Shown here one piece after another: positions 4,020 to 61,900 of a stretch of 64,000 nt of DNA. Below the pieces are notes generated by a model, which saw nothing but the letters and a program-made list of their open reading frames with translations, ran no database searches and was not told the DNA's origin. Location of the stretch: contig JANVCC010000018.1 in the NCBI GenBank assembly GCA_025345505.1, positions 58,901,120 through 58,965,119 on the forward strand. The letters are read 5' to 3'. The DNA is from Todiramphus chloris collaris (taxonomy: Eukaryota > Chordata > Aves > Coraciiformes > Alcedinidae). Position 1 is the stretch's first letter, and the number at the start of each line of letters is the position of its first letter. The translations under genes and the position numbers were made by a program.

Positions 4020-4165
4020 TGCATGCAACCTCTGAAATAAATATAAAAAAGAAAAGAAAGAGGACTACTGCAAGAGAAATTGAAGAAGGCAGTGAGAGAA
4101 AGAAGAAAAAGAAAAAACAATTTCAGCCAAATTACTTCATTTCTCTTCCAATTACTAATCCAGAG
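4020..4165 (+). CDS. AKAP7: AKAP7 coding exon 3 (basic NLS-like stretch, start of 2H domain)
   Basis: This is a 146-nt exon entered in phase 1 and left in phase 0. The acceptor is CTCCTTCAG (ends 4019) and the donor GTGATA begins at 4166. It encodes two lysine/arginine clusters (IKKKRKR and ERKKKKKK, separated by 12 residues), a good match to a bipartite nuclear localisation signal. Long AKAP7 isoforms are known to be partly nuclear. The clusters are followed by QFQPNYFISLPITNPE, which is nearly the same as the conserved start of the AKAP7 central domain (PNYFLSIPIT in mammals). The PNYF...PIT strand opens the LigT/2H phosphoesterase fold. Confidence 0.9.
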
Positions 4166-5523
4166 GTGATATTCTTTAATATACTAATTTGGTATAAACA
4201 GAGTTACTTCAACAGCTGTATGTGTTTATAAGAACAGCATTTGCTCTTGAGCAAATATGGTTTTTTCAGGTATTGTTAAAGGAACATGCAGCCTATTCAA
4301 AGAATAACTTTATGTAAGAAATTTCTTTTTGTGATTAAAATTGCTTGTCTGGAAGAGACTGGAGGAAAAACATTCTATCTTCTTACTCAGTTTGTCAGTC
4401 TTAAAGATTTTGAGTTATTTTTAGTGAAGCTGGAATAAATTTCCCCTCTGTACTGTTCCGGTATTGCTGATTTTGTTATTCACTTAGAATAAGGGAGAGA
4501 GACATTCCTATTTAATTTAATAAGAAAATCCCTAGCAATATTTTCAGCTATCCTTGTAGATAGGAATTTAAATTTGGACCTGTTGCAATTTTAACTTGGC
4601 AGTTTGTAGTTCAACATTTTCCAGTAAAATGGATCATCTTACTTAAAATTCAAACAACCCATTGTTTTAGTGAGATATTGTTCACATGGATTCAAGAAGT
4701 GCAGAGAGCTCTTTAAGAAAATATTTTCTTGTAGTTAGTGCATGGTCTTTCATTTATACAGCGAATAAGAATGATTTCTTACATGCTGTGGGATATCTAT
4801 GGTGCGTTTTTGACACCTTTTCTGTCAGCAAATAAGGAAAGTAGTTGCATTATGTTTAAAAGGTGAAACCTAATAGTTTACCACCATTTCCAAATTTAGG
4901 TTTAGTTTTTAATACCAGGAGCTACCTCAGGTCAATTTTAACTCATCCTACATCTGTGCTATCTGTTCTCCGAGAAAGTCAAAATTAAGAGAATTTGAAA
5001 TAAAAATAAACCAAAGTAAGTTGGAGAATCACAATGTAGTCTTTGTTTCTTCAAGAGATTGTAGAGGTGTGATTTATTCATCTAAGATGAATATTGTGGA
5101 AGATCTTTTGTGCCATCTTACTCTGAGATGTCTTTCCTTCCTGTCTGTTCCATGATTCAACAAGTGTGAGAATAATGTAAGGGTTATCTCATCTGATAAT
5201 TGAGAATTCTTGCTCATGATTGTTTATTACGTTGAACGGCTGGTCGAGAGGAAAAAGTTTTAACTATGCATTCTTTTTGTTTTTATATGCCCTGTATATG
5301 TCATTTACAGAGGTAAAGGAACAACTATATTAAATCTCAGAGCATTTGGGAATTCCAGGACTTTGCTAGAAAGTTTTGTTTATACTTGCCTTAGAAATAG
5401 AAAATATACGTTGGAATTTGCATGGGCAACATTAGCCAAAATTTAGACTTATGGCACCTGGTTTCTTGATAGCCAGAGGGAATCTGGTAATTACTGGTAG
5501 CATTTCAGTTACTAATGAGAGAC

Positions 5524-6262: not shown

Positions 6263-8117
6263 TGTGTTGCTTCTTACCAAAGCCGGAACTATACAAGGGA
6301 ACTGGAGGTGACACAGGACATGTGCAGGAAGGGACCTGTAACTACGACTAAAGGAAACAGTATGGGTAAGGGGCAGTGGGGTATCGACTTCTAGTCTGAA
6401 TGCTGAATAATGTTGATATTCTTCAGAACTAGGATGGTCTTACCACAGTGATAACATAGTTCCACACCTGTCTTCTGTATTCTGAAGGTCTTGTACACTT
6501 AGCTTACTTTTTCTTTTTGCCAGCTCTAGGGTGCAAATTAAATTTAGAAGAGAGAGTTGAAAATGGAATGAAATTGTAATTCATATGATAGGTGATTTGT
6601 GAGGTTTGTTGTTTGTTTGTTTGTTTTCTTTATGGGGATAACTGCATTTGCTTCCATTGAGAAACTTAATTATGTAATCAATGTATTGTAATCATGAGGG
6701 AATGCATCTACTATCTTTTTGCTTAAATGTAGCTTAAATTTCTCCTATGTTTGAGACAGTAAAAGTGTTCTTTATCCAGAATAAGATCAGTTCTGACATA
6801 TAGCAGGAAGACGGTCTTATTAAGAAATAATTTATGATCAAAATGTTGGTGCAATTTTCTTCCTATGTCTTACACTACCTAAGACAATTGTGGTTTTGTG
6901 GATGCTATACCACATTTTTCTGGCAAGTGACTTTTACCTTTCTTCATCCTCCCTAGATTTGGTTCCTTTCAGTTATAATTTGGTTTTATTTGCATGGCAC
7001 TACTAGATATCTATGGCACATTAAGTAAAACTCCTGTAGGGCAAAACTCATCGTAAGAAATTCAGTTAGAAAAATACTGACCATTCCCACTAGATTGTGT
7101 TTTTTTCTGGAAATTTATGTATTCCGTATGATTAACAGAGCTACCAAAATGTATTGGTTTTTTGGGTTTTTTTAACCTCAGAGCTACTTGTGTTTTATAT
7201 TATAAAACACAGTGTGTTCAGTATATTTGTGAAGCATTCACTACTGAGTTAAAAAAAAAAAATCAGAATGAAGTTTTCTACAAACTGCTTTTTACCTTAT
7301 ACATCTCTGCTGATTTGTCTGTAATGTCTTTGCTTACCATGCTTTAAGAAAGAACTCATTTTGTCAGATGGTCAAGGTTACTGGATTTGATTTAATTTTC
7401 ACTACCATAATTTATTTATTTTTTTAATAAATCACTCCAGTACAACTATCCTAATGGCAATCACAGTAAACTTTTTGGATACAATGTATAAAACCTATAA
7501 CTATGCAAATTCAATGAAGAAAATGTAATTCAAAAATGTAATTCAAATAATTGAAGAGAAAAATAATGGTGAAGTTAGTTAGAACTGTATATGTGTTGTG
7601 TGGAAATTCATTAAAATATGTTTGAAGAGGGTATATAAATTATATCTGTTTATTGGACAGTGTAATCAGAATTGTAAATCGAGTATGTCTACAAATTACT
7701 TACTGAATATTCCAGTTTTGTATGTGCCTGATCCTGCAGAGATCTTTTTCCAAGTGCTGGTCTGCATATAGCAACATCCAAGTTTAGCAAAGCAGGCAGT
7801 CTTTTATATGGATTACTGGCAGTGTAAAACTGGATGATCTTAATCTGCTCCAGGAATTTGTTATACTTATGGAAGCAAACTCCTATTAAGATGTGATGGG
7901 GAGTGTCCAGTGATTTATTAATCACTCCATTCATACCCACTTTGGGTTTACTTGGGTCAATTAGCATGGCTCTGACAGAGGATAAAACTTCCTTCTGCTA
8001 GAATGATTTTTACATAAATGTTTGATTTCAGTTTGGGTGCTTTCTTGTTCACTTGCATGATGGGATACAGTAATTGTAATGGCTAACTATTGTTTCTGTG
8101 TCTGTCTCTCTTCCCAG

Positions 8118-8254
8118 ATTACTGACCGTATTCAGGCTGTCCAAGATGCAATAATACAAAAGGATCAAAGGCTTTCCAAAGCAATGGTTCATTCGGGCTC
8201 ATTGCATGTCACCATGTTAGTGATGCATTTATCCAATGAAGAAGAAATCAGCAT
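8118..8254 (+). CDS. AKAP7: AKAP7 coding exon 4 (first HxT motif of the 2H phosphoesterase)
   Basis: This is a 137-nt exon entered in phase 0 (ITDRIQAVQDAI...) and left in phase 2. The acceptor is CTCTTCCCAG (ends 8117) and the donor GTAGGT begins at 8255. It encodes IQKDQRLSKAMVHSGSLHVTMLVMHLSNEEE. The HVT in SLHVTMLVM is the first H-x-T/S motif of the 2H phosphoesterase superfamily, matching HIT in mammalian AKAP7. In mammals this domain hydrolyses 2',5'-oligoadenylate (the RNase L activator) and binds nucleotides. The catalytic histidine and threonine are both present, so the sequence is compatible with an active enzyme. Confidence 0.93.
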
Positions 8255-11200
8255 GTAGGTGTTTGGTGTTAAGTATATACAAGTATTTTTACTGGAGTAG
8301 TTCATAAAAAGGCTAGAAGGAGTAACTGATGCTTATTTTTTGCAATATACAGGCCTAAATTACTAGAGTTACTGAACATTTAGTTCATTTGTCCTTTAGA
8401 TACTAATCTTAATATTAGCCATTTTTGTAACATGATACATCATGAGGCCTGAACAAAGTATGCTTTTTTCCCTTGCATTTTTCTTACTGTGTGCACAAAT
8501 CTCATGTTTGCTGAAGTAATTATGTTCAAGTAATGTTTTGATATAGAGGGCACTGAACGGATTAACAGGGGAATTTTCAGAATTTCATAGCTTAGCAAAT
8601 GTTATAACTCAAATTAGTAATTGTCACTGAAAGACTAATGAGATAAACCTTACCTCCAGGCTAATGCCTTATGCAGTTATAGGTTGTTGGGTTTTTTTAT
8701 GTTCCTAAAGGAATTTGTTATTCTCAAAATTAGTACACTAAAAGGCTATTAGGCCTTATGAAAAATAAAAATTTTATATTGCTCCAGTGGTATAGCTTAC
8801 TTTTTGATCATGTAAAAGGTAGAAAAATTGTGGAAAGGCCTATTATACAATGATGTCGCATATCTAAGTTGTAGATGCAACACTTGCTTATGAAAATGCA
8901 GTTCACAGAATCACTGTGACTGGAAAAGGCCTTTGAAGATCATCAAGTTTAACCATTATCTGACTGTACCAGGGCCACTACTACAACATATTCTTGAGCA
9001 CTGTATATGGCTGGCTTTTAAATACTGACAGGGACAGTGATTCAATCACTTCCCTGGGCAGTCTCTTCCAGTCTTTGGTATCCCTTTTGGTATAGAAATT
9101 TTCAATAATGTCTAATACAAACCTCTCCTGGCATAACTTGAGGCCATTCCTCTTGCCCTATTAGTTGTGACTTGTGAGAAGAGACAAACACCCACCTAAC
9201 TACAACCTCCTGTTAGGTAGCTGTAGAGAGTGATAAGGTCTCCCCCAGTACTTTGAAATTTTTTACTGTTCATCACATGCTGTACTGCTATCTCACAAGC
9301 CTACTTTAATGTACAAGCTCAGTGGTCAATATGAAGATATTCAGATTTTTATTTCTATCTATGCAGCTGTAATTTATTAATGTTCATAATAATAATTTTT
9401 ATGTCTAGGTGCAATTTTGACTTGAAGATGTACATTGTATTTTATAGTTCTGCTTTACACAGACTTTCACGACAGCTTCTATTTAGATGTGGTGCCCAAT
9501 GGCCTGCCTATGTGCTGTCTCTATTTGCACATTATAACTACAGAACTGAGATTTTAAACACTTTGGTAACTGTAACAGAGTATAATGTAAAATGCTGTTA
9601 ATGCATTTTACTTTATATTAGCATTATATTAATATCTGCTTACATGTCAACTTGGTTGTGAATTGCTAGTGAATTAAAAATCATCAGATTCTTAGAATTC
9701 TGTGAATGGGAAGCCTCATGGTTTCATCTTCCCTAGGCAAGTTCTTTAAGGTGCCCTCTGTCATATCTGTATATCTCTTACTGGTTTTCTCTGCAGTGTT
9801 AGCAGGCATGTGATCCATGTATTGAATTATCTAGATCAAATAATGAGTAAGTGCAGTGAAACATTGCTTTAGTTATGGTAATACAGGTACAAAATAATGT
9901 GTCTAATTAGTGTGTGTTGAATAATTTTATTTCCTTTAGAAGGTTTGGCTGTTAAAGTGCAGATCGCTCTTAAGAAAGTGAGAATCCAAGATAGAATGTA
10001 GGAACTATTTGGTAGTCAAGGGCATACTTCTAGTACATAGAAGTATGTTGGCTAAAAACATTGAACACATCTAAAAACAATGAGATAGCAGTATATCTCA
10101 ATCAACTGCCCTGCTTGTTTTCCACGCTTGTTTCCTTGAATGCTATATCCTTGAGACCTCTATACTCCTACTTCTCTTGTGAGGATGTGAGTCTGTCAGC
10201 ATCTTTGTCTGCAACAGTGTGACCTAAAGGGAGAGAAACAGATAGCCAGAAACAGAACAGAAAGATAAGCAAAGGATATTAGATCTGTTGGACTCCCTTC
10301 CCTCTCTCCATGTGCCTTTTGTCTCCTGGAGTAGGCACACCAGCTTCATTCTGCCCTGGTTCATAAGCAAACTGTGGTAGCACCTGAGAATCGGTGGGGA
10401 CAACCACTGACTGTGTGCACAAGATTTTTTTTTAAAAGGTTTTGAAGTGCTAACTTTTTTTAAAAAAGGAAAGTGAGAGGATAGCTCAAAGGAAAAGTAT
10501 GCCTCCTCATTAATATTTTTTAGTCTTAAACTCTATATCAAAACAAACATTCTCCAATTCAGTATTTTATGCTACTCCTCGAGCTCCTTCTCATCTCTCA
10601 CTGTCCAGCTGCCACCCAAGTACATACTTATGGAGCTCTTCTCTGCCTCTCCTAGCAGAACTCCACAGTCCAGGCAACCAGGAGCTGTCCTCTAGTCAGC
10701 AGCTTTCCCAGTGACTCACCCCTTCCCTGGCCAGATGCCTCGTACAGGTATCTAGCTCAGCAATCCTCAGGTATTCTAGACTGCATCTTTTATTACATGG
10801 AATTTGATTTATTTATTTATGTATTAAAAACTGATGCTTTCTGGTTAATCTTTTGGAAGAACTTCAAGGTTAAAAAATTGAATTTTCCTTTCTTTACCTG
10901 ACCAGTTTTAATACCAGGTTAATAGAAAGAAGCATGATCCAGGCTGGCAACAGAACCTGTGTGTGTAATGTAGAGTGAGATTAATCCCTCAAAGTGCAGT
11001 TGGTCAGCTGGGCATCTGAGAATTCTCATAACCTTAGGTTGGATGCACTAAGTCACTTAGATATCTACACTGTTTTCTACAGTGTTTGCACAATAGTGCC
11101 TCTGTCTGTACAGAAATGAAATGTGTTGAACGCAATCTGAAGGCAAAACGCGTGATAAGAATGTGCTAAACGTAACATTCGATTCAGCACAAAGCCCTTT

Positions 11201-13801: not shown

Positions 13802-13962
13802 AGCAGTTGGTGCTCTTTCAGACAGCAAGGATTTTGTAGAAGAACTCCTGAAGGGAAAAACTGTGGATTTGTCTTTTCAAGGAATTGATCACTTCAAAAA
13901 TGAAGTTGGATTTGTGAAGTTGACAGAAAACGATCATACAGCTATACTTAAAGAAATAGCAG
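13802..13962 (+). CDS. AKAP7: AKAP7 coding exon 5 (2H-domain core)
   Basis: This is a 161-nt exon entered in phase 2 (AT|A isoleucine) and left in phase 1. The acceptor ends at 13801 and the donor GTACAA starts at 13963. It encodes AVGALSDSKDFVEELLKGK, then LSFQGIDHFKNEVGFVKL and HTAILKEIA. These follow the mammalian protein closely (EELLQGK, LPFQGI, FGNQVGFVKL). The GFVKL strand and the following helix belong to the middle of the 2H fold, between the two catalytic HxT motifs. The donor is weaker than the others (G|GTACAA). Confidence 0.93.
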
Positions 13963-14539
13963 GTACAACTCATCGATCTGGTTTAAGTGCTTAATTTAAA
14001 GACATTTTGACAACCTAGATGAGAATGGAGCACACGGAGAAGCTGGTGCTAATTTACGTTTAAACATTATTCACCTTTAACAACTGCAAAGGCTACATAA
14101 CAAATCTCCCAGCATAATTCAAAACATTATTAATGAATTACAGATAGTATTCCTCTCTGATATATTTTTTTTATTTATTTAGTATATATAAAAGATGTAG
14201 TGCAGGTTTGTAGATGAATATAAAGACTCCATTATGCCATGTTTTGGTCCAAGTACTGGCTGCTGTTTCTCAGCTGCTATTTATGTCCCTTTCAATTTGT
14301 ATATTTGTACTTACTGACTTTAAGAACTGTATCTTTGATGCATCTTACCTGACTTGCAAAGTTACATAGTTCTCTCCTTTGTGTTCATGCTGAGTGGAGC
14401 AGTGACAGTCAGTGACATTCTTTCCTCTTCTATAGGCTGGGGAGTCCACATTTTGTGTTTCCTGTATGTTATACATATTACTCTTAAGTATCAGTGAATT
14501 AACTGTAACTTATAACTCTCACATGTGTAAGTGCATATA

Positions 14540-24020: not shown

Positions 24021-24263
24021 TAGGGAGAGGGACCAACTGAAGCACAGGAGGGTCCTTCTGAACATCAGGAAGCAGTCTTTAACCACGAGAGTGATGAAGC
24101 ACTGGCACAGGTTGCCCAGGGAGGTTGTGGATTCTCCATCCTTGGAGACATACAAAACACATCCAGATACAGTCCTGGGCAACCAGCTCTAGGCAGGTGT
24201 CTCTGCTTGAGCAGGGAGGTTGGACCAGGTACTCTGGAGGTCCCTTCCCACCTCAACCATTGT
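24021..24263 (+). mobile_element. CR1 LINE 3' fragment (a)
   Basis: The sequence is typical CR1 ORF2 C-terminus plus 3' UTR. It contains AACATCAGGAAGCAGTCTTT, AAGCACTGGCACAGGTTGCC, GGAGGTTGTGGATTCTCCAT and AGCAGGGAGGTTGGACCAG, ending near CCTCAACCATTGTGG. Translation gives LNIRK...VMKHWHRLPREVVDSPSLE, the conserved CR1 ORF2 C-terminal motif. The 5' end is truncated right after an AT-rich stretch, and the usual ATTCTGTGA tail is almost lost. Confidence 0.93.
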
Positions 24264-24576
24264 GGTGGGTTATTTTCAGCATCTGTCATAGTAATGTGAC
24301 CCCTATTACCACTGTGTAAGTACTTCACAAGTTATAATCTGATTGTCCTTTCAGCATCTTGTAAATTAGAATAAAAGGTTGGGCTAAATCTTGTTTGTAA
24401 AATCCATCAGCATCTTGTAAGTGGAGAGCAAAGGTTGAAGGAGAACTTTTCAAGTGGGCCTGTTTAAGAGATGGCATTTGGATATTGTGATTTCCTTGGC
24501 TTCTTTAAAAATCCCAACTTTTGCATCGACTGTGAGGCCTAGGATTGTGGTTGTTGTCAGTGGGGTAGAATCTAGA

Positions 24577-25546
24577 TGAAGGCTTGTGGCTAGTGGTGTC
24601 CCACAGGGGTCAGCACTGGGTCCAGCCCTTTTTAGTATATTCATCAATGACCTGGATGAAGGGACAGAATGTACCCTCAGCAAATTTGCTGATACAAAAC
24701 TGGGAGGAGTGGCTGAAACACCAGAAGGCTGTGCTGCCATCCAGTGTGACCAAGGCAGGCTAGAGAGCTGCAGGGTGGGGGAGAAATGTAATGAAATTCA
24801 ATAAGGGCATGTGTAAAGTGCTGCATCTGGGATGGAACAACCCCATGGATCAGTACAGGTTGGGTGGGGGCTAATCTGTCGGAGAGGAGCTCTGGGGAAA
24901 AGAACCTGGGAGTCCTAGTGGGCAACAGGATGACCATGAGCCAACAGTGTGCCCTCATGGCCAAGAAGGCCAGTGGCATCCTAGGATGCATTAGGAAGAC
25001 CATGGCCAGCAGGTCAAGAGAGGTTCTCCTCCCCCTCTACTCTATGCTGGTGAGGCCTCGCCTGGAGTACTGTGTCCAGTTCTGGGCACCCCAGTTCAAG
25101 AAGGACAAGGAATTACTGGAGAGGGTCCAGCACAGGGCCACTAAGATGATTAAGGGCCTGGAGCACCTACCATATGAAGAAAGGCTGAGAGAACTGCGTC
25201 TGTTTAGCCTGGAGGAGGCTGAGGGAGGATCTCATCACTGCTTATAAATATCTAAAGGGTGGATGTCAGGAAGATGGGGCCAGTCTGTTCTCAGTGGTGT
25301 CCAGTGAGAGGACTAAGGCAATGGCCATAAACTGGAAATCAGGAGGTTCAACCTCAACATGAGTGACAAAGCACTGGATCAGGCTGCCCAGAGAGGTGGT
25401 GGAGTCTCCATCTCTGGAGACTTTCAAAAGCTGCCTGCATTTGTTCCTTTGTGGTGTACTCTAGGTGATCCTGCTCTGGCAGGGGGGTTGGTCTAGATGA
25501 TCTTTAGAGGTCCTTTCCAACCCCTACCATTCTGTGATTCTGTGAT
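24577..25546 (+). mobile_element. CR1 LINE fragment (b) with part of the reverse transcriptase
   Basis: This is the largest transposon piece in the window (about 970 bp). It encodes [14 protein letters not shown] (RT motif) and FINDLDEG, then [11 protein letters not shown]. Further on come [30 protein letters not shown] and [14 protein letters not shown]...[29 protein letters not shown], followed by the 3' UTR and an ATTCTGTGATTCTGTGA tail. The catalytic FADD box reads FAD, with one aspartate codon missing, and the two halves are in different frames. It is a dead, 5'-truncated copy. Confidence 0.96.
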
Positions 25547-26387: not shown

Positions 26388-26660
<273 letters not shown>

Positions 26661-29790: not shown

Positions 29791-29796
29791 TTTAAT
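29791..29796 (-). terminator. candidate polyadenylation signal (ATTAAA) for MSH5
   Basis: TTTAAT on the + strand reads ATTAAA on the - strand, about 300 nt after the MSH5 stop codon. It is the best poly(A)-signal-like hexamer I noticed in the first 300 nt. Such hexamers are common in AT-rich DNA, so this is only a candidate. Confidence 0.3.
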
Positions 29797-30091: not shown

Positions 30092-32527
30092 TTAGAGGAC
30101 TGTGGCTGCAGAAGGCAACACCTCTTTACGCAAGAACTCTTCTAAGTCCACCTGGGGATCATCAAGGTCTAGGTGAAGAAACTTTTCCACAACAGACTTG
30201 CATTTTTCCATCTGATCTTCTTTTGAAGGATGATCAATACGTTTGATAGGTCTTCCATTGCGAATCAGTTCTGACACTTCCACTCCTCTGTCAATAATTT
30301 TGGCTGGCATTCCTGCTAATGCAGCAATGTTGGCAGCATGACTAACCGTGGACATGCCGTGTTTGATCTGATAGAAAAATATCAACTCATCTCCATCTTG
30401 GTGGGTCTCCATGCTTAGGTATTCCAGAAGAGGTGTGTCAGGCAGAAGTTCTAGCTGCATTAAACTGTGAAAATTAGTGGAGATGAAGACCTGCGGACAC
30501 TGTGTTCCTTGCCTGATCCAGTACCTCAGGACAGCAGCCAGAAGGGACAGACCATCCAGTGTGTTGGTCCCTTTACCAAACTCATCAATAAGTACCAAGG
30601 ACCTCTCCGTGGCATTGTTTACTGCCTTGGCAACCTGGTTAAGATCAATCATGAAAGTGGAGAGCCCTACAGAAACGGACTCCCTGCTGTGGATTCTTGT
30701 GTAAATCCCATCAATTACACCAATCTCTGCCTCTGTTGCAGGGACGTAACTGCCAATTAGAGCCATGAATATTATAAGACCTACTTGCTTTAAGTAGACG
30801 CTCTTTCCAGATGAGTTTGGTCCTGTGATGATTTTTATTCGTCTGGTAGCCTCTCCACTGTTCACAGGATTGGCCACAAAAGTCTTGGCACATAGTTCCA
30901 TGAGTGGATGTCTTCCATCCTTGATGTGGAAGCCATGGCGGTGAGTAAAGCGTGGCCGGCAGTAGGCATTCTCCCGGGCCATCTCTGCTAAAGCTAGCAG
31001 CACATCTAGGTGTGCAGTGTACTCAATCACGCTGTTAAGCACTTCAGACTTCTCCAAGATCTTTGTCTGCAGCTGATGCATAATAAGTGTTTCCTGGTCT
31101 CTGATCTCACAGTGCAAGTCCCCCAGCAAGCTGTCCAGCTCCTTAGTCCTAGCACTTCTGTAGTGCAGTTTATCCTCTGACAAGAACATGAAGTCCAAGC
31201 CTTCGATTTCGAAGTCGCTCTTATCCACCATAGTTGGTAGCCGTGGAATGGAGAGAAGGAACCCAATCAAAGGAATGTAGATCACAGAACAGGAGGGAAT
31301 ATGATTGTCCAAGGTCTCCAGTTCTTTTCGTGCCACTCCTGTAAGGAAGTCTGACAGTCCCATCAGCTTTCGTTTCTTCTCATCGATGGCTGGGTCCACA
31401 TTGGGTTTAACTGTGAAGCGGTTCTCTGAGATGCTGCCTTCAAAGTCCACCACCTTGCTGATTAGACTGGCAATGTAGTGCAGATCATCAGTGAAGACAC
31501 GCGAAATACTCTGAAAGAGTTCTATATTCTTGGGCAGAGAACGACATGTGTCTCTAAGGCACACTGCGCTGTACACTGTCTTATAGAGTGCTTGCCAGTC
31601 ACTAACTTTCGTGTTTGAAAGACTCATTCTCTTTAGAATAAGAGGCACATTTTTAATATTCTTGAGGCTACCTTGAAGAGTGAGGACTGTTTCATGGTTC
31701 TGAGCTAGCAGGAAGAAGTGGATAACATCTAGCCGTTTGTTCAGCTCTGTCAAGTTCCGAGTAGGTCGTGTGAGCCACAGCCTCAGCAGTTTTTCTCCCC
31801 ATTTGCACCTGCAACGGTTTAAAATTCCATATAAACTGAATCCTTCTTTTAATCCGCTGGACAGCTTGTACACAGAAGGATGGATTTCACTTTTAAATAT
31901 CTGCAGGACACAGTAAGTGTCTTGGTCCATATTCACAGTATCTGACAGCACAAACTTTTTAAAGGACAAAATAGGGACTGCAATAGTGTTTTCTTCAAGC
32001 TCAACTCCAACCCTTCTCCTGTCTAGGAACTTAAGGAGTCCTCCGAGGGCTTGAATCATGAGTGGACTCTCAAAAGGGATGACTGAGGATAAGTAGAGAA
32101 TTTTCTCTTTTGCTGTCATATGAGATGGGATAAAGGGAAATTGCCTAGATAGGATCCGTTGCTTGCTGACTTCTAGGCCGAAATCTGTGTTAGGAAACAG
32201 GACAATTTCTGGTTTTCCTGTATCTTTGTCACCAGCAGTAGCTGTTAGGTTGGTCAGGAATTTGGCAATATTCTGGTCCTGTTTTGCACTGGTCACTATG
32301 CATTGAGGATTAACTTCCCCAATCACTTTATGCAGTAGCTTGAGGTCTTCATTATCAGGAATCTCAGGCATGAAGTAGACCGAGCAATCTTCTGTATCAT
32401 AATAAGTAATTGCAAGCTGCCCTGCACACCACAGAACAGACATGTGTGTCTCGGAGCATTCTTGGTCCTCTTGTTCAGGCCCAAGTGGTGGTGGCAAGGC
32501 ACAACTCATGGCTGATGTGGCACTCAT
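30092..32527 (-). CDS. MSH5: MSH5, intronless full-length retrogene (MutS protein homolog 5)
   Basis: This is a single uninterrupted 811-codon frame for MSH5. With MSH4, MSH5 forms MutS-gamma, a meiosis-specific sliding clamp that stabilises recombination intermediates and promotes crossovers. It does not repair mismatches. The protein matches vertebrate MSH5 over nearly all its length. Examples are [27 protein letters not shown]-type core segments such as [15 protein letters not shown], and [20 protein letters not shown]. The ATPase domain has Walker A GPNSSGKS (569-576), the [18 protein letters not shown] signature (about 613-632), Walker [12 protein letters not shown] with D648/E649, and TNF (684-686), where other MutS proteins usually have TH. 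Human MSH5 is about 834 residues; only the N-terminus is shorter and diverged. ATG at 32527 has an in-frame TAG 30 nt upstream, and a second ATG follows at codon 7. The mammalian gene has about 25 exons, so the absence of introns means retroposition. The intact frame over 2.4 kb implies selection or great youth. Confidence 0.96.
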
Positions 32528-33084
32528 TCCGTTGGAGAAAGATATTTTTGTTCTCTACTCATCCAAAAACTCCTGAGAAGTAACTGTAATTGACAAGTAG
32601 GTTAACACTCATTCTTGCAACCCTGGAGAAACTAAGATGCTATCAGGAATTGAGGACAGATGTTACCTGTTCCAGATGCAGCCAGTAACCACAGCTGCCA
32701 TCTTGCTTCCCAGCAAGGCGTAACTGAGCTACCTACCAGCAATGCTGGAATAGTTTTACAGTTTTAATTTGCATCCTTTATTTTCCTAAGTATGTATGTA
32801 TGCTCAAATACCCATACAGTAACGTACGTGCACATGTATGAGAAAATCATCTTCCCTCAGAGGTATGGGACACCCCTGTGCACTGACCACAACGCAGCCA
32901 CATCAACTGGTGGTGGTTTCCAGGCCCTACCCCAGTATCTGCAGCGCCATCACATAGTAACAGTTCCTATACAAGTACATAATGTACTGCTGCAGGGACA
33001 AACCCTACCACTTTCCACTACAGCATCCAGAGCCTCTGTCAACAACCCACTTCCAACCGCCTCCCTCACACTTCTCTCCTCTAC
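32528..33084 (-). promoter_or_regulatory. MSH5 5' flank with candidate 5' UTR acceptor
   Basis: Between the MSH5 start codon and the CpG island there is about 550 bp of moderate-GC sequence. On the - strand, TTACTTCTCAG ends at 32573, giving a plausible 3' splice site 45 nt before the ATG. A matching donor could be GTAGGA at 33221 on the - strand, inside the CpG island. A spliced noncoding 5' exon is therefore possible, as in many expressed retrogenes, but this is inferred only from splice-like motifs. Confidence 0.35.
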
Positions 33085-33540
33085 TCCCCCTCCTCACCAC
33101 AGCCGAGCAGCGCCTCTCGGCTGCCGCGTCTCCTTGCAGCCCAAAGGCTTTCTGTTGACCTGCTTCCCCTGCGGCCAGGCGCTTGCTGCGCCCCGCGCCC
33201 CAGCCTCCCGCCGGCTCCTACCCAGAAGGCGCCGCTCCGTGGCGCCGAGCCCGCCTGCGCAGCCAGCCCGCGGCCGCCATCCCGCCCCTGCAGCGCCGCC
33301 CTTAACCGCCGGTCGCCCCCCGCGGCCGGGACTCCGCAGTCGCCCTCTCCCGGCTGCAAGTCCCTGCCGTGAGGAGGGGAATGGATACTCAACCGGCCTG
33401 GCGGGCTGCCGGCGGAATTGGAGCAGTCCTCGCCTCAGGGCTCCCCCTGCCAGTCCCTGCCGGTCCCCGGAGGTGACTCGCTACCTCCCGCCCTGCCCTG
33501 GCCTCCTCTGAGCCCCGTGCTCCTGGCGGGGGTTAGGTCC
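33085..33540 (-). promoter_or_regulatory. CpG island, probable MSH5 promoter
   Basis: About 450 bp is very GC-rich and dense in CpG, in an otherwise AT-rich intron, starting 560 bp upstream of the MSH5 ATG. It contains GGGGCGGG (Sp1-type, - strand, near 33285) and CTGCGCAGGCGG (NRF1-like, - strand, 33262-33251). No TATA box was seen. The long open frames through it on both strands are an effect of base composition. It lies mid-intron of AKAP7 and next to MSH5, so promoting MSH5 is the simplest role. Transcription in both directions is possible. Confidence 0.7.
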
Positions 33541-33551
33541 CTAAAACTCTG

Positions 33552-33670
33552 TGGCCAGGCTGAACAGGGCTTTGAGCAACCTGGTCTAGGGGAAGGTGTC
33601 CCTGCCCATGGCAGTGGGGTTGGAAGTAGGTGATCTTTAAAGTCCCTCCCAATCCAAACCATTCTGTGAT
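33552..33670 (+). mobile_element. CR1 LINE 3' end fragment
   Basis: This is the CR1 3' UTR signature: GGCCAGGCTGAACAGGGCTT, TGAGCAACCTGGTCTAGGGG, AGGTGTCCCTGCCCATGGCA and GTTGGAAGTAGGTGATCTTT, ending CCATTCTGTGAT. It abuts the right edge of the CpG island. Confidence 0.93.
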
Positions 33671-33679
33671 TTTCTAAGG

Positions 33680-34330
33680 TGGTTGAAAGAAGCCTTCTGA
33701 GCAGCCCAGCCTGACAGACAGGGATGTCAAGTATCAGCTTCTCAATGACCTACCTCTGCACCACCTGCCCGTGCTCCAGCGGGAGCCGTGGCCTTCCCTA
33801 CCCACTGCCCAACTCCCCATTTCTTTCACCTGTTGGGGCTTCTTCCATTTGCTGATCAAGATACTTCGAGAAACTGTAAATGAATCTTCATATGCCACCC
33901 TCGCCTCTGGAGAGCTGGCTGTGTGGTGCGGCTGGGAGATGGGCGTTTTGGCTTTGGGTCTGGTACATGGAAACTGAAGCTGCTTGCCAGAGGTGTTGGC
34001 CAGCTCTCTTTGCAGCTGTGTTAAGGGTTGGCACCATGTGGGCCTTCCTGCCCCTGGTCCCACAAAGGGCCACCTCTGCATGGCTGCCTGCTGAGAGCAG
34101 CCACAGGGACTCCATGCAGCTGGAGACTTTACCTGCAGGCTGGGGACAGGAGGCTGCACCTTCCCAGCCTGCATACAGAGGAGGTGCAGACAGCCAGTCA
34201 ACAGACATGACAGAGCTACCATGTACTGTCTTCTTCGTGCCCTGCTGGTCTTGCAAGAACTCCACATGCAACATCTCTTCAGGCTCACATTACACAACCA
34301 CGTTCCTTTAGGCATCCATTCGCTTCCTCA
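33680..34330. other. GC-intermediate block, unassigned
   Basis: About 650 bp with higher GC than the intron average carries open frames up to 193 codons on the - strand and 143 on the + strand. None has a recognisable domain, and the translations are rich in C, W, S and P with no internal pattern. No repeat family was recognised. Confidence 0.3.
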
Positions 34331-36986: not shown

Positions 36987-37190
<204 letters not shown>

Positions 37191-57100: not shown

Positions 57101-58704
57101 AAGCAAAGTAATCCAGCAGCCACGAAAGGCTGCTTTTCCAGTGCACACAGATGATCTTTTGGTGAAACTCCTGTGGTTTCCCTGGATCTCCTGTACAGAA
57201 AATTGTGTGCAGACTTTCTAGACTGTAAGCCCACAGTTCCTGTGTGTACCTGCATTCCTTCATTATTAGCCTAATAACAGAAGGCGGGTGGGATCAGATG
57301 GGCTTTGCGTATGTGTATGTGTTAATCTGTCCATTACAGCAATAACTTTCAAAGTTGTTGGCAAATTTATGGTACATATAGATGTAGAAGTCTCAAAATG
57401 GTAAATATCTACATATTAACAGAAATACACATTTGGATAGAAGGGAGAGATTTGTATTAATTCCCACAATGAAGGAAGAATTGCAGTACGAGCTCAAGTT
57501 TTAAGAGCCACGGGGCATCCAGGGACTGTTGTCATTACGAATGACTTGCCACAGGTCAGTCTTCAATATGAATTTGTTGGACACCAAAGGGCTACTTTGC
57601 AGCCACATCTCATGTACATTCTTTGTTGTCTAACGGAACAGCCTGTGATGTCAGCTCTTTGCAGCAAAAGCTGGAATACTCACAATATGCTTACCCTGCA
57701 AGGATGCCTCTGTAGCTAACAGTGTGTGAGCACCCCAATGATGTTGGTCTAATTTATTTAAAAATGCAACGATCTGGAAAGCAAAATAGGTAGGAAGCCA
57801 GGCATTTCTGCTTCTGGTACACACAAGAATACTTAAACAAAATGTATTTCTTTGTGTTTGGTCTTATTTACATGCTTTGCATGAGTAGACTCAGTTTACC
57901 AAAGCCATACTGGCTGTGCTCATTTACTGTCCTGTCTCACTGTGGATGCCAAACTTCCACTCTTAGGTGTTTTATTACTTATTTACTTTCAAATGATTAA
58001 TTATTGTGTTGAGTAGAGTTGGGATTAGTACTAATCTCTGTAGGACGGCCTTTAGTTATTTTTCATCATTAATTGCTTAATTTACTACTCTGTACTGATG
58101 TTACATCTCGTTAGTTTTTCACTACCTTAGAAACGCCTCAGTTTATTACAGCCACCAGGCGACCTTGGTCACCCACACTTGTAATAGAAACCCAGCTGGG
58201 AAGGAAAGCTAGGAACCTGGAGTGAAGGCGACCGGCTCTATTCCCACTGAAGTCGGCAGCAAATCCCCCCCGAACTGGGAGCAATACTCAGGATTGGTTT
58301 CTCAGCAGCAGCTCGACCAGCTGTTTTTTCTTTGCTTGGTGTTAAACCTCATTTTTGCTTTTGGAGGAAAGAAGAACAGCCCATTTATTAAGTATAAATC
58401 CTTTATATACTTAGTCGTATTTTCTCTCCCTTCTCGGCGCGCTTCTGTGAAGCGGAGGGAGCTGCGGGGGCAGAGGGCACACGGCCACGCTCGCACTTTT
58501 TAAGCGGCCGGTACCTTATGGAGGGTGGCCACACGGTCCTTACGTTTTTAGTGCCCATCCCTCCTTTAACATCGGTACGAGAAAAGGAAGAGCGGGCTGC
58601 TGTCTTTAAGACAAACTGCAGGGCAGGGAGGAAAACGCAGGGTGCCCGAGGGTCTCCGCTCGTCCCCACTCCCCAGCGGGTTGCGGGTGCCGGAGCCGAG
58701 CGGT

Positions 58705-58740
58705 GGGGCCGGGGCCGGGGCCGGGGCCGGGGCCGGGGCC
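58705..58740 (+). repeat. (GGGGCC)6 hexanucleotide repeat
   Basis: There are six exact GGGGCC units, followed by GGGCGGGGCGG. Runs of four G at regular spacing can form G-quadruplexes. The repeat is about 175 bp upstream of the short-isoform ATG and could be in the promoter or the 5' UTR, depending on the start site. Confidence 0.97.
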
Positions 58741-58870
58741 GGGCGGGGCGGTTCGGGGCGGAGCCTGCCGTTCAGTCCCGGCCTCAACGCTCGCTCCCGG
58801 AGCAGAACAAGCAGTTTCTTCACGGGCTACGGCGTGATCTGCGGCTTTTTCCTGAGCTGCACGCAGAGAA

Positions 58871-58899
58871 GAGGAGGAGGAGGAGGAGGAAGAAGAGGA
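58871..58899 (+). repeat. GAG/GGA purine repeat in the 5' UTR
   Basis: This is a pure purine run of GAG and GAA triplets just upstream of the start codon. It would be transcribed in the short-isoform leader. Confidence 0.85.
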
Positions 58900-58910
58900 T
58901 AAAGCGGTAG

Positions 58911-58913
58911 ATG
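58911..58913 (+). promoter_or_regulatory. upstream out-of-frame ATG overlapping the AKAP7 short-isoform start
   Basis: The leader reads GGTAGATGCCATGGGCC. The first ATG, at 58911, is out of frame with the AKAP7 ATG at 58916 and has a weak +4 base (C). The AKAP7 ATG has G at +4 but T at -3. Ribosomes must bypass the first ATG by leaky scanning, so it may lower or tune translation. Confidence 0.6.
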
Positions 58914-58915
58914 CC

Positions 58916-58964
58916 ATGGGCCAGCTCTGCTGCTTTCCCTTCTCCAGAGGGGAGGAAAAAATCA
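58916..58964 (+). CDS. AKAP7: AKAP7 alternative first exon (alpha/beta-type, membrane-anchoring)
   Basis: The exon codes for 16 residues, MGQLCCFPFSRGEEKI, plus one base of the next codon. The mammalian AKAP7 alpha N-terminus begins MGQLCCFPFSR. Gly2 is a myristoylation site and Cys5/Cys6 are palmitoylation sites. They anchor the short isoform (AKAP15/18) at the plasma membrane, where it tethers PKA to L-type calcium channels. The donor GTAAGT begins at 58965. The exon ends in phase 1, the same as the exon at 37011-37155, so both can splice to the same downstream exon. ATG 58916 is the first in its frame after an in-frame TGA at 58853. Residues 12-14 (GEE) differ slightly from mammals (DEG). 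Confidence 0.96.
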
Positions 58965-61900
58965 GTAAGTGTGCAGCAGTGCCTGCTGCCGCCTCGGGGA
59001 GGGGAGAGCTGCGGGAAGCAGGCGGGCATGCCTTGGGTTGTTTTTTCCTTTCGGAAAATTAGCTGATTGCTTTTTACAGAAAGGATGAGGATAGGTGGAG
59101 ACAAATTGAGCAGTATTTCCGCTAAGTAGATTTTCTTTGTAATAAAGATAAGTAATGATGTCTGGTTTTGTTTATGAGCATTCTGACAGTCCATCTCTCT
59201 ACACAAATATAGCCAAAGTGGGTATTTAAATTTTCCTTTTTAGCGAGTGTAATTAAAAGTAAGAGATGGAAAAGGATGAAAAGCAGATGTGATTTTAACA
59301 AGTGCAATTTAGAGTTAGAGATGGGAAGGTTTTGCTCTTGATAGCATACATGTTGATGGCAATGGTCATTAGCAACAGCTAAGAACAGAGATTTTATTGA
59401 TAGCAGTGTTGATGGATGACAAAGGAAATCATCAGTTCATTTATCATTTGGTTGGATGTGTAGTTTTAAGCTGAGATAGTGAAGGAATAGTTGCATTTAT
59501 GTATTCATCTGGTAGTGCCTTGAATGACTTTCAAGTATATATTTCTGGCTTTGCTTGTAGTTGAGTAAGTATAAGTTGAATTAGAGGAAGCTTATCCTTT
59601 GGTGCACTGAGTCAATGTAGCTAATGTGACTGGAATGTTGCTTCTGTTAAATTATGTGCTGAAAATTATGTTTTTCCTAAGTTTGGTTACACTTTAAATA
59701 TTACACAATAAAATATTTACTCTTGACTTTTTGCTCTGAAAGATTTTCAACCTTTCTTCTAGAAAATTCAGCCAAATTTCTGTCACGTTGTGTCTGAAAT
59801 AAGTTTTAACTAAATTCACATAATTTATTAGCTGTAAGCTACAAAATCCAGTTTTCTGGTCTGGTTTATATTTCATTCTTGTTACTCAGCAATCTGTCAA
59901 GGCATAAATAAAATGAGAATTTATACCATGGGTTAAAAAATGAATGTGTACACCAGTAGTGCAAGAAATCTGGAAGACAGCCTTGAGAAAATGAGTTGGT
60001 TGTCGTAAAACATTTTTCCTTCACAGGTCATGGTATGAGTGTGAATATTGTAAATTTTGCATGGAGAAAATGGATAGGAATATTTAATATTTCACAACAT
60101 TTTTATCGTATAGCCAGTACAGAATGTCTGTATGTGAACAGCAAGTAGCCAGTGCATCTCACTTCTAATGTACAGAATAGGTGAAGACAGATAAAAGCAA
60201 CTTGTACATGCTAAGATTGCTTTGCTGATGCAGAGCAAAAGATAGAAAAAAATTATAGATTCTGTGTCCTGCTTCTTTCAGTGCCCTTGCTTCACTGCTT
60301 TTTGACTTTTCTTCTGGCATTACCTGTCATGCACCAGCTTTCTTTGTATGTGCTCCTGTGAGTGAAGGAACATATACTAAATATAGCGTTTAGTATAGCA
60401 TGACCTCAAACTGCTTGTAGTTGAAAAATCATTCAGGAGATGTCATTGCGTGCAAAGTCATATGGGTTTTTGAAAGAAGTGGGCTTTCCGCATGTAGAAA
60501 CTGAAAGGTGTGGCATAAACCCCCGTGAATGTGGAAGGGACAGAAAGGATAATTATAGGATGATGGGCATCTGAAGCAAGGAGGTCTGGCTGTGGATGAG
60601 GTAAGTAGATGGTGTCTGAAATGAGGAGAAAAAAATGGAATGTGGCTCTGTTTTACCAGTGTTCGTGGGGGAGTTAGACAGACTGGAGACATCTTATAGA
60701 GGAAGTTAAGTGGTGAGCGTGGTGGATATGACTGGCTTTTCCCTCAGTCCAGCACAGTCTGGAGAAAAGAAAGGGCTTTCCTTTCAGCTGGTCCCATGGC
60801 TGCTTCTCTCTGCCACGCCTGGTTCTTTCCCTGGGCAGTGGGAGGAAGTGCTGCTGCCGTGCGTGGCTGTGCCCCAGCTAGATGGACGGTTTGTATCTGG
60901 GCACATGAAACAGGCAGAAAGGACTGACTTTCACATCCATTTTTCATCTTCCTATCATACTATCATGATGGCCTTTAAACTAATGGTGTTATGAAACTAA
61001 CCTAGCCTTTTATTGCTACTAAATTATCCTGGTTAGCAAACATGCAGGTGCAAGTTGTGATCATGTGGTGGTTGTATATGAGAAACAAAATGTACATTAA
61101 ATTAAAGTACATGATATAAAAGCAGGCATTTTAAGTAAACAGCAGCTCAGCATGTTACTTGACTTGTTTTGGTCACAGTGAAGATGGAAACGTCCAAATT
61201 TCATTGTAGTCTTCCTCTAAATTTTGATTCAGCTGAGGTGCCTCAAGTTAAACACTGCTGACAAATGCCAGTTATTGAATTGCTGTGAGTTCATTATTTA
61301 CTTAGTAAGGAAATGTTTCCATTTCATGTATGGCATAGTTTCAAAAGGTGTTGTAGATTTTATTATCTGGTACTGTTATATAGTACATGTTTGTGTTGAG
61401 TGAGATGAAAGATCATTGTTTTCATGGTGTGCTTTTTAAAGTTTGAGTTTAGATCTATTTTCCATCAAGTCCAAATTGAATTTAACTTCAATACGTTGCC
61501 TAATCAGCATTGTTTAGGGACAAAGGGGGGAAAAAAACAAATGATAAAACTAACCTTAGAAATTAAAAGATGCCTATGACTGAAATGCAGCACATTACCG
61601 ACAAGTAGAAGCTGAGTCATGTTAGTAAGTTTTATCAGCCACTTGCTTATGTCTTATATTCACACACAGTATGTATTTCACATCCCTATCCTCTTCAAAT
61701 AGAAGTGTAACCTTGGAAAACATCTAGCCAAGTTTTGTGGTTGTGGTAAGATTGTAAGAGTGGTGGTTCTGGACCAGATTTTAAATCCCTCTCCCTAGTA
61801 TCGTAGGTACAGGTTGCCTAATAAAGCCATTAAAAAAGGACAGGTGTAAGAAGGTGTTTCCTCAGAATACAGCTCCAGTGCTGCAGCAGTTCAAGGCTTG

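Follow-up and report, generated by a model that had tools for sequence, protein, structure and literature searches.

A full-length intronless MSH5 nested antisense within AKAP7 in Todiramphus chloris collaris has very likely replaced an intron-bearing parent

Introduction

To our knowledge, essential single-copy meiotic genes have seldom been found to be replaced by retrocopies, and the chordate case that has been described is SYCP1. In amphioxus, SYCP1 is a retrogene with a single coding exon, new 5′UTR exons and a co-opted promoter, the parent of which has been lost, and the same source gives SYCP1 of Ciona as a second case of replacement (PMC5803294). For humans, 25 orphan retrogenes have been reported (cited in PMC8793726). 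Meiotic proteins including MSH5 have been analysed in birds and other groups, with gene structure not mentioned in the available text of that study (PMC12642689). In a literature search with most subscription papers outside its scope, no paper joined MSH5 and AKAP7, and there was no report of a retrogene, intronless or single-exon MSH5.

Here we analyse MSH5 in a 64,000-nucleotide stretch of the genome of Todiramphus chloris collaris (the window). Mammalian MSH5 belongs to the same family and has the same motifs, but it is a gene of about 25 exons located in the MHC class III region; internal insertions of at least six residues in 7 of the 64 mammalian MSH5 rows that we examined are as expected of a multi-exon gene. 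Like amphioxus SYCP1, MSH5 in the window is a core meiotic gene with one coding exon, for which a multi-exon parent was not found; its site is probably new, as that of the amphioxus gene is, and the amphioxus replacement is its closest precedent (PMC5803294). The two differ in that SYCP1 is a structural synaptonemal protein whose retrogene is a neighbour of another gene and is not nested antisense within an intron, and in that its new 5′ exons, promoter and expression have been described, whereas exons and promoter are only proposed for the window MSH5, which is known from sequence alone (PMC5803294). The human orphan retrogenes share with it the retention of a retrogene after loss of the parent, but are other genes, none of them testis-specific according to the available text (PMC8793726).

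Results

The MSH5 frame begins with ATG and contains no internal stops (Table 1). A sequence-only reading of this DNA had proposed an uninterrupted frame of 811 codons with conserved motifs, and its coordinates and openness were confirmed exactly. Pfam recognises MutS_V (6.9e-52) and MutS_III (2.1e-27), together with MutS_IV at 20.6 bits, just below the cut-off of 22, while the mismatch-binding domain I is absent, as it should be for MSH5. All of the ATPase motifs are in place and intact (GPNSSGKS at residue 569, STFMIDL at 623, a 13-letter stretch at 644 and STNFHS at 683). The closest relatives among the protein matches listed are bird MSH5 rows, with 94% identity over 100% of the query, and the human row is 66% identical. 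NCBIfam returned for the frame bacterial MutS-type models alone, all below their cut-offs; relatives of the frame were not found in the viral and prokaryote contig collections, and Rfam gave no match in the window. A sigma-70 promoter scan was set aside as inapplicable to bird DNA.

Table 1. Features of the window relevant to MSH5 and its host gene AKAP7 (window positions).
Feature	Position	Strand	Evidence or remark
MSH5 coding sequence, 811 codons, without intron	30092–32527	−	Open reading frame, Pfam, protein search, motifs, genome search
CpG island, candidate MSH5 promoter and first exon	33001–33500	−	CpG scan; promoter role inferred
Candidate 5′UTR intron, inferred	32573–33097	−	Donor-like GTG/GTGAGG, acceptor-like CTCAG/
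ATTAAA, candidate poly(A) signal, 295 nt past the MSH5 stop	29791–29796	−	Other candidates further downstream
AKAP7 match, weak	4127–4171	+	tblastn, E 0.019
AKAP7 exon match, alignment overruns exon end	8109–8297	+	tblastn, borders by eye
AKAP7 exon match	13806–13979	+	tblastn, borders by eye
AKAP7 exon match, low-coordinate flank of host intron	26523–26660	+	tblastn, borders by eye
AKAP7 exon match, high-coordinate flank of host intron	37011–37160	+	tblastn, borders by eye
Second CpG island with AKAP7-alpha first exon (58916–58966)	58401–59000	+	CpG scan, tblastn

The host gene was delineated with a human AKAP7 probe sequence that was compared with the window by tblastn. This probe gave five plus-strand matches in order, one of them weak, as well as the first exon of AKAP7-alpha, and AG/GT borders were judged by eye around the matches. 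The MSH5 frame lies antisense between the last two of the five, and the claim of the sequence-only reading that it is nested within an AKAP7 intron thus holds, with pieces of AKAP7 on the opposite strand to both sides. The short form of AKAP7 has its own promoter, marked by the second CpG island and separate from the candidate promoter of MSH5.

The nearer CpG island lies 0.5–1 kb upstream of MSH5 and is likely to be the MSH5 promoter. Inside it, on the minus strand at 33280, stands ATGGCGGCC, the predicted product of which resembles the annotated N-terminal extensions MAGG (P0008) and MAAGPRGG (P0036), and the extensions of these two models are suggestive of a short 5′ exon at this point. The donor-like site of the candidate 5′UTR intron was found by script; its acceptor-like site was picked by eye, the script giving 32640 and 32623 instead. 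Stretches resembling remnants of CR1 LINEs occur at 24024–25247 and at about 33550–33690 of the window, the second adjoining this CpG island.

Neither an A-rich tail or poly(A) tract beside the MSH5 frame nor a flanking direct repeat or target-site duplication was found, the repeats being judged from the 20 biggest families out of 60 or more. Both would be expected to be missing from an old copy, since both decay with age, but as neither remains retroposition is unproved. The same absence would suit a history with no retroposition, in which the introns were lost in place through conversion by the gene's own cDNA and the gene was rearranged into AKAP7, or in which AKAP7 is the old sauropsid site. 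We give such a history only a slim chance, because the loss of all coding introns and the nested antisense site would arise in one step by retroposition; the ancestral site would be the MHC class III region, where mammalian MSH5 lies. Retroposition is the mechanism that we favour.

The assembly (1,173,753,469 bases in 889 contigs, the window being C7:58901120-58965119) was searched with three MSH5 proteins: that of the window, a turtle protein (P0042) and a human protein (P0095), which gave seven matches (E up to 0.001), nine (E up to 1) and nine (E up to 10), respectively. Exactly one match per query was of MSH5 grade, and in each case it was the window frame, whose identity to the three queries was 100%, 85% and 66%, respectively; the lone TAA in the turtle-query match is MSH5's own stop at the match end. 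An intron-bearing MSH5 elsewhere in the genome, the presence or absence of which bears directly on the sequence-only reading, was thus not found in the assembled sequence with any of the three queries. Because the frame is a single uninterrupted match on a 68.4 Mb contig, a cDNA misjoined by the assembly, which that reading had named as a possible source of error, is not indicated. The remaining matches were to C618 (27–29% identity) and to pieces on C693, C9 and C55 (33–64% identity). Those on C693 and C9 are presumably MSH3 and MSH2, and those on C55, once fetched, proved to be MSH4, matching egret MSH4 at 82–93% with one piece at 58%. Contig C618 (3,416,713 bases) holds a bacterial MutS frame of 923 codons in surroundings that look bacterial, and seems to be a large bacterial contaminant in the bird assembly.

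As a positive control, an MSH4 query gave 28 genome matches, 19 of which are exon-size pieces at C55:45932-71103 (18 at 75–95% identity and one at 56%), showing that the partner of MSH5 is present in the same genome. Since MSH4 was seen as 19 pieces, and MutS exons were detected at 33–64% identity, an assembled intron-bearing MSH5 should have shown. It is nevertheless conceivable that the genome has both a working retrogene and its intron-bearing parent, the latter on a microchromosome that is badly assembled and perhaps linked to the MHC. MHC class II beta was matched in the assembly only once, and in part (C85:2191661-2191738), so coverage of the MHC is poor and a parent MSH5 there could be missed; a fragmentary parent would also escape our protein search, which covered the best 120 matches to proteins 0.55–1.75 times the query length. 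We regard such coexistence as unlikely, given the lack of any other MSH5-grade match with the three queries and of a second MSH5 clade among 39 bird tree rows drawn from many assemblies.

Those 39 rows come from the 41 bird MSH5 rows among the matches listed, seven of which were assigned to birds by tree position. In 27 of the 41 the length is 808–815 residues, the other 14 being partial, low-quality or Ensembl-type models. The tree contained 71 rows (the window and 70 of 137 proteins), a second Merops row and one Pezoporus row being the bird rows omitted. Bird MSH5 forms one clade that follows taxonomy (paleognaths, Galloanserae, Neoaves), with Alligator, turtles and squamates outside it, in that order, and no second, parent-like clade among the 39 bird rows. 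The window protein falls within vertebrate MSH5 at the host's place in birds, as sister to the bee-eater Merops (SH-aLRT 97 in the 71-row tree and 44 in a smaller one). Sequences of 92–148 Mb carry twelve of the 41 bird rows, the others being on shorter ones or of size not given. This is the size that we take to be that of bird chromosome 3, where chicken AKAP7 presumably lies, and the AKAP7 site may well be common to other birds. For MSH4, the rows from Morus, Phaenicophaeus and Pithys are on sequences of 34–38 Mb but some, e.g. those of parrots, on longer ones, and sequence size is therefore only a rough guide to chromosome.

Three further observations concern these rows and trees. A burst on the bird stem was considered in a rate test (bird stem versus Alligator, 0.083 versus 0.059 for MSH5 and 0.048 versus 0.092 for MSH4) and dropped, because turtle branches give an MSH5:MSH4 ratio similar to that of the bird stem, leaving the Alligator MSH4 row as the odd value. 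The woodpecker MSH5 branch (P0030, P0038) is long (0.12 in one tree and 0.099 in the other, where end branches have a median of 0.038). The antbird Pithys albifrons has two MSH5 rows (P0026, P0039) on different large sequences, identical at 763 of 810 residues. Of the 294 positions that do not vary among 25 non-bird vertebrates, P0039 alters 19, compared with 10 in P0026, and we take it to be a recent extra copy under weaker constraint.

At the same 294 columns the window protein has two changes, both common to other birds, and 19 other bird rows have 3–19. By this protein-level measure, which is not a dN/dS, the frame is under strong constraint, a result that backs the proposal of the sequence-only reading that the retrocopy would be a functional gene. 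The contrary idea, that the frame is open by chance because the retrocopy is neutral or recent or because the assembly is in error, was confronted with a simulation of neutral drift in 40 copies, with substitutions and without insertions or deletions. Drift to 94% identity (d about 0.03 changes per site), the level seen between the window and penguin or gannet MSH5, left stops in 37 of the 40 copies, and a d of 0.10 or more left them in all 40. Bird orders are several times more diverged than 0.03 changes per site at neutral sites. Together with the protein constraint, the full-length bird relatives and the 68.4 Mb contig, these figures leave a chance frame with a negligible probability.

Indirect signs on introns in relatives came from isoform labels, counted by hand in RefSeq-style rows among the matches listed. 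Such labels occur in 5 of 33 sauropsid MSH5 rows (birds 3/21, turtles 0/3, squamates 2/9) and in 39 of 48 mammalian ones; by sauropsid species, 5 of 32 have them for MSH5 versus 30 of 32 for MSH4. Fisher tests on these contrasts gave p values of 3e-9 and 1e-10 for samples that are best-match lists and not random, and for MSH4 the query was a C-terminal part of the human protein, making the MSH4 and MSH5 searches unequal. Among the matches listed, lgn is the only source for 7 of 41 bird MSH5 rows (on contigs of 2.8–9.1 kb) versus none of 53 for bird MSH4 (the test used 52); lgn entries are presumably raw-read assemblies.

Gaps in some models were also considered. The same 27 residues (723–749 of the window protein) are missing from six Ensembl-type bird models (P0027, P0032, P0034, P0036, P0040, P0041) and one Anolis model (P0121). 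The window frame runs through this stretch, and a skipped exon in birds was rejected because by eye no GT-AG pair fits it in the window; that the gap is a modelling artefact is an unproved reading. In four partial bird rows from GenBank there are gaps near residues 570–585, with further gaps near 739–747 in three of the four, and the Alca row shows seven gaps of a single residue; we ascribe these gaps, too, to modelling.

The event does not seem to be confined to the lineage of this species and may date back to the origin of birds or beyond. Two turtle MSH5 rows lie on sequences of 212 and 218 Mb, presumably the size of turtle chromosome 3, and one on a 22.8 Mb contig. Turtle (Pelodiscus) chromosome 3 is the counterpart of chicken 3 (PMC3534110). 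In four squamate rows the full frame sits on contigs of 3.6–5.1 kb, which may be transcripts; the MHC of Anolis is on chromosome 2 (PMC9679377). The scarce isoform labels and these sequence sizes hint that the origin may predate birds. Chicken retrocopies are few, 78 in one survey, which is ascribed to CR1 being the main LINE (PMC3136929), and an old origin under another LINE is therefore plausible. It is quite possible, and we propose it tentatively, that MSH5 was retroposed once, either in the common ancestor of turtles, crocodilians and birds or in that of sauropsids as a whole.

Discussion

We have high confidence in the explanation taken as a whole, namely that MSH5 was retroposed at full length into AKAP7 and, after loss of its parent, is the sole MSH5. 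In this model, a spliced MSH5 mRNA would have been reverse-transcribed in the germ line and the copy inserted antisense into the AKAP7 intron, in the bird ancestor or earlier. The copy would then have come under a CpG-island promoter, probably with the addition of a short 5′ exon, while retaining its full protein coding, and loss of the intron-bearing parent would have left it as the only MSH5. Its protein would act as an ordinary MSH5, forming MutS-gamma with MSH4, clamping recombination intermediates and promoting meiotic crossovers.

It is very likely that the retrogene has replaced an intron-bearing parent. The suggestion of the sequence-only reading that it took over from the ancestral gene is largely supported, with the sole MSH5 in the assembly, the constraint on its protein and the one bird clade now added to it; that the parent is lost beyond what is assembled we infer from these, and the copy's expression and meiotic role are presumed from the conserved frame.

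If the replacement took place as proposed, MSH5 left its old neighbourhood while its protein remained constrained, and a core crossover gene came under wholly changed regulation, with its own CpG island, no coding introns and an antisense position in AKAP7. It would offer a natural experiment, one that can be dated, in which a meiotic gene had its introns and promoter replaced. Should the single early retroposition prove true, a whole branch of the amniotes has relied on an AKAP7-nested MSH5 without coding introns to make its crossovers for roughly 250 million years or longer.
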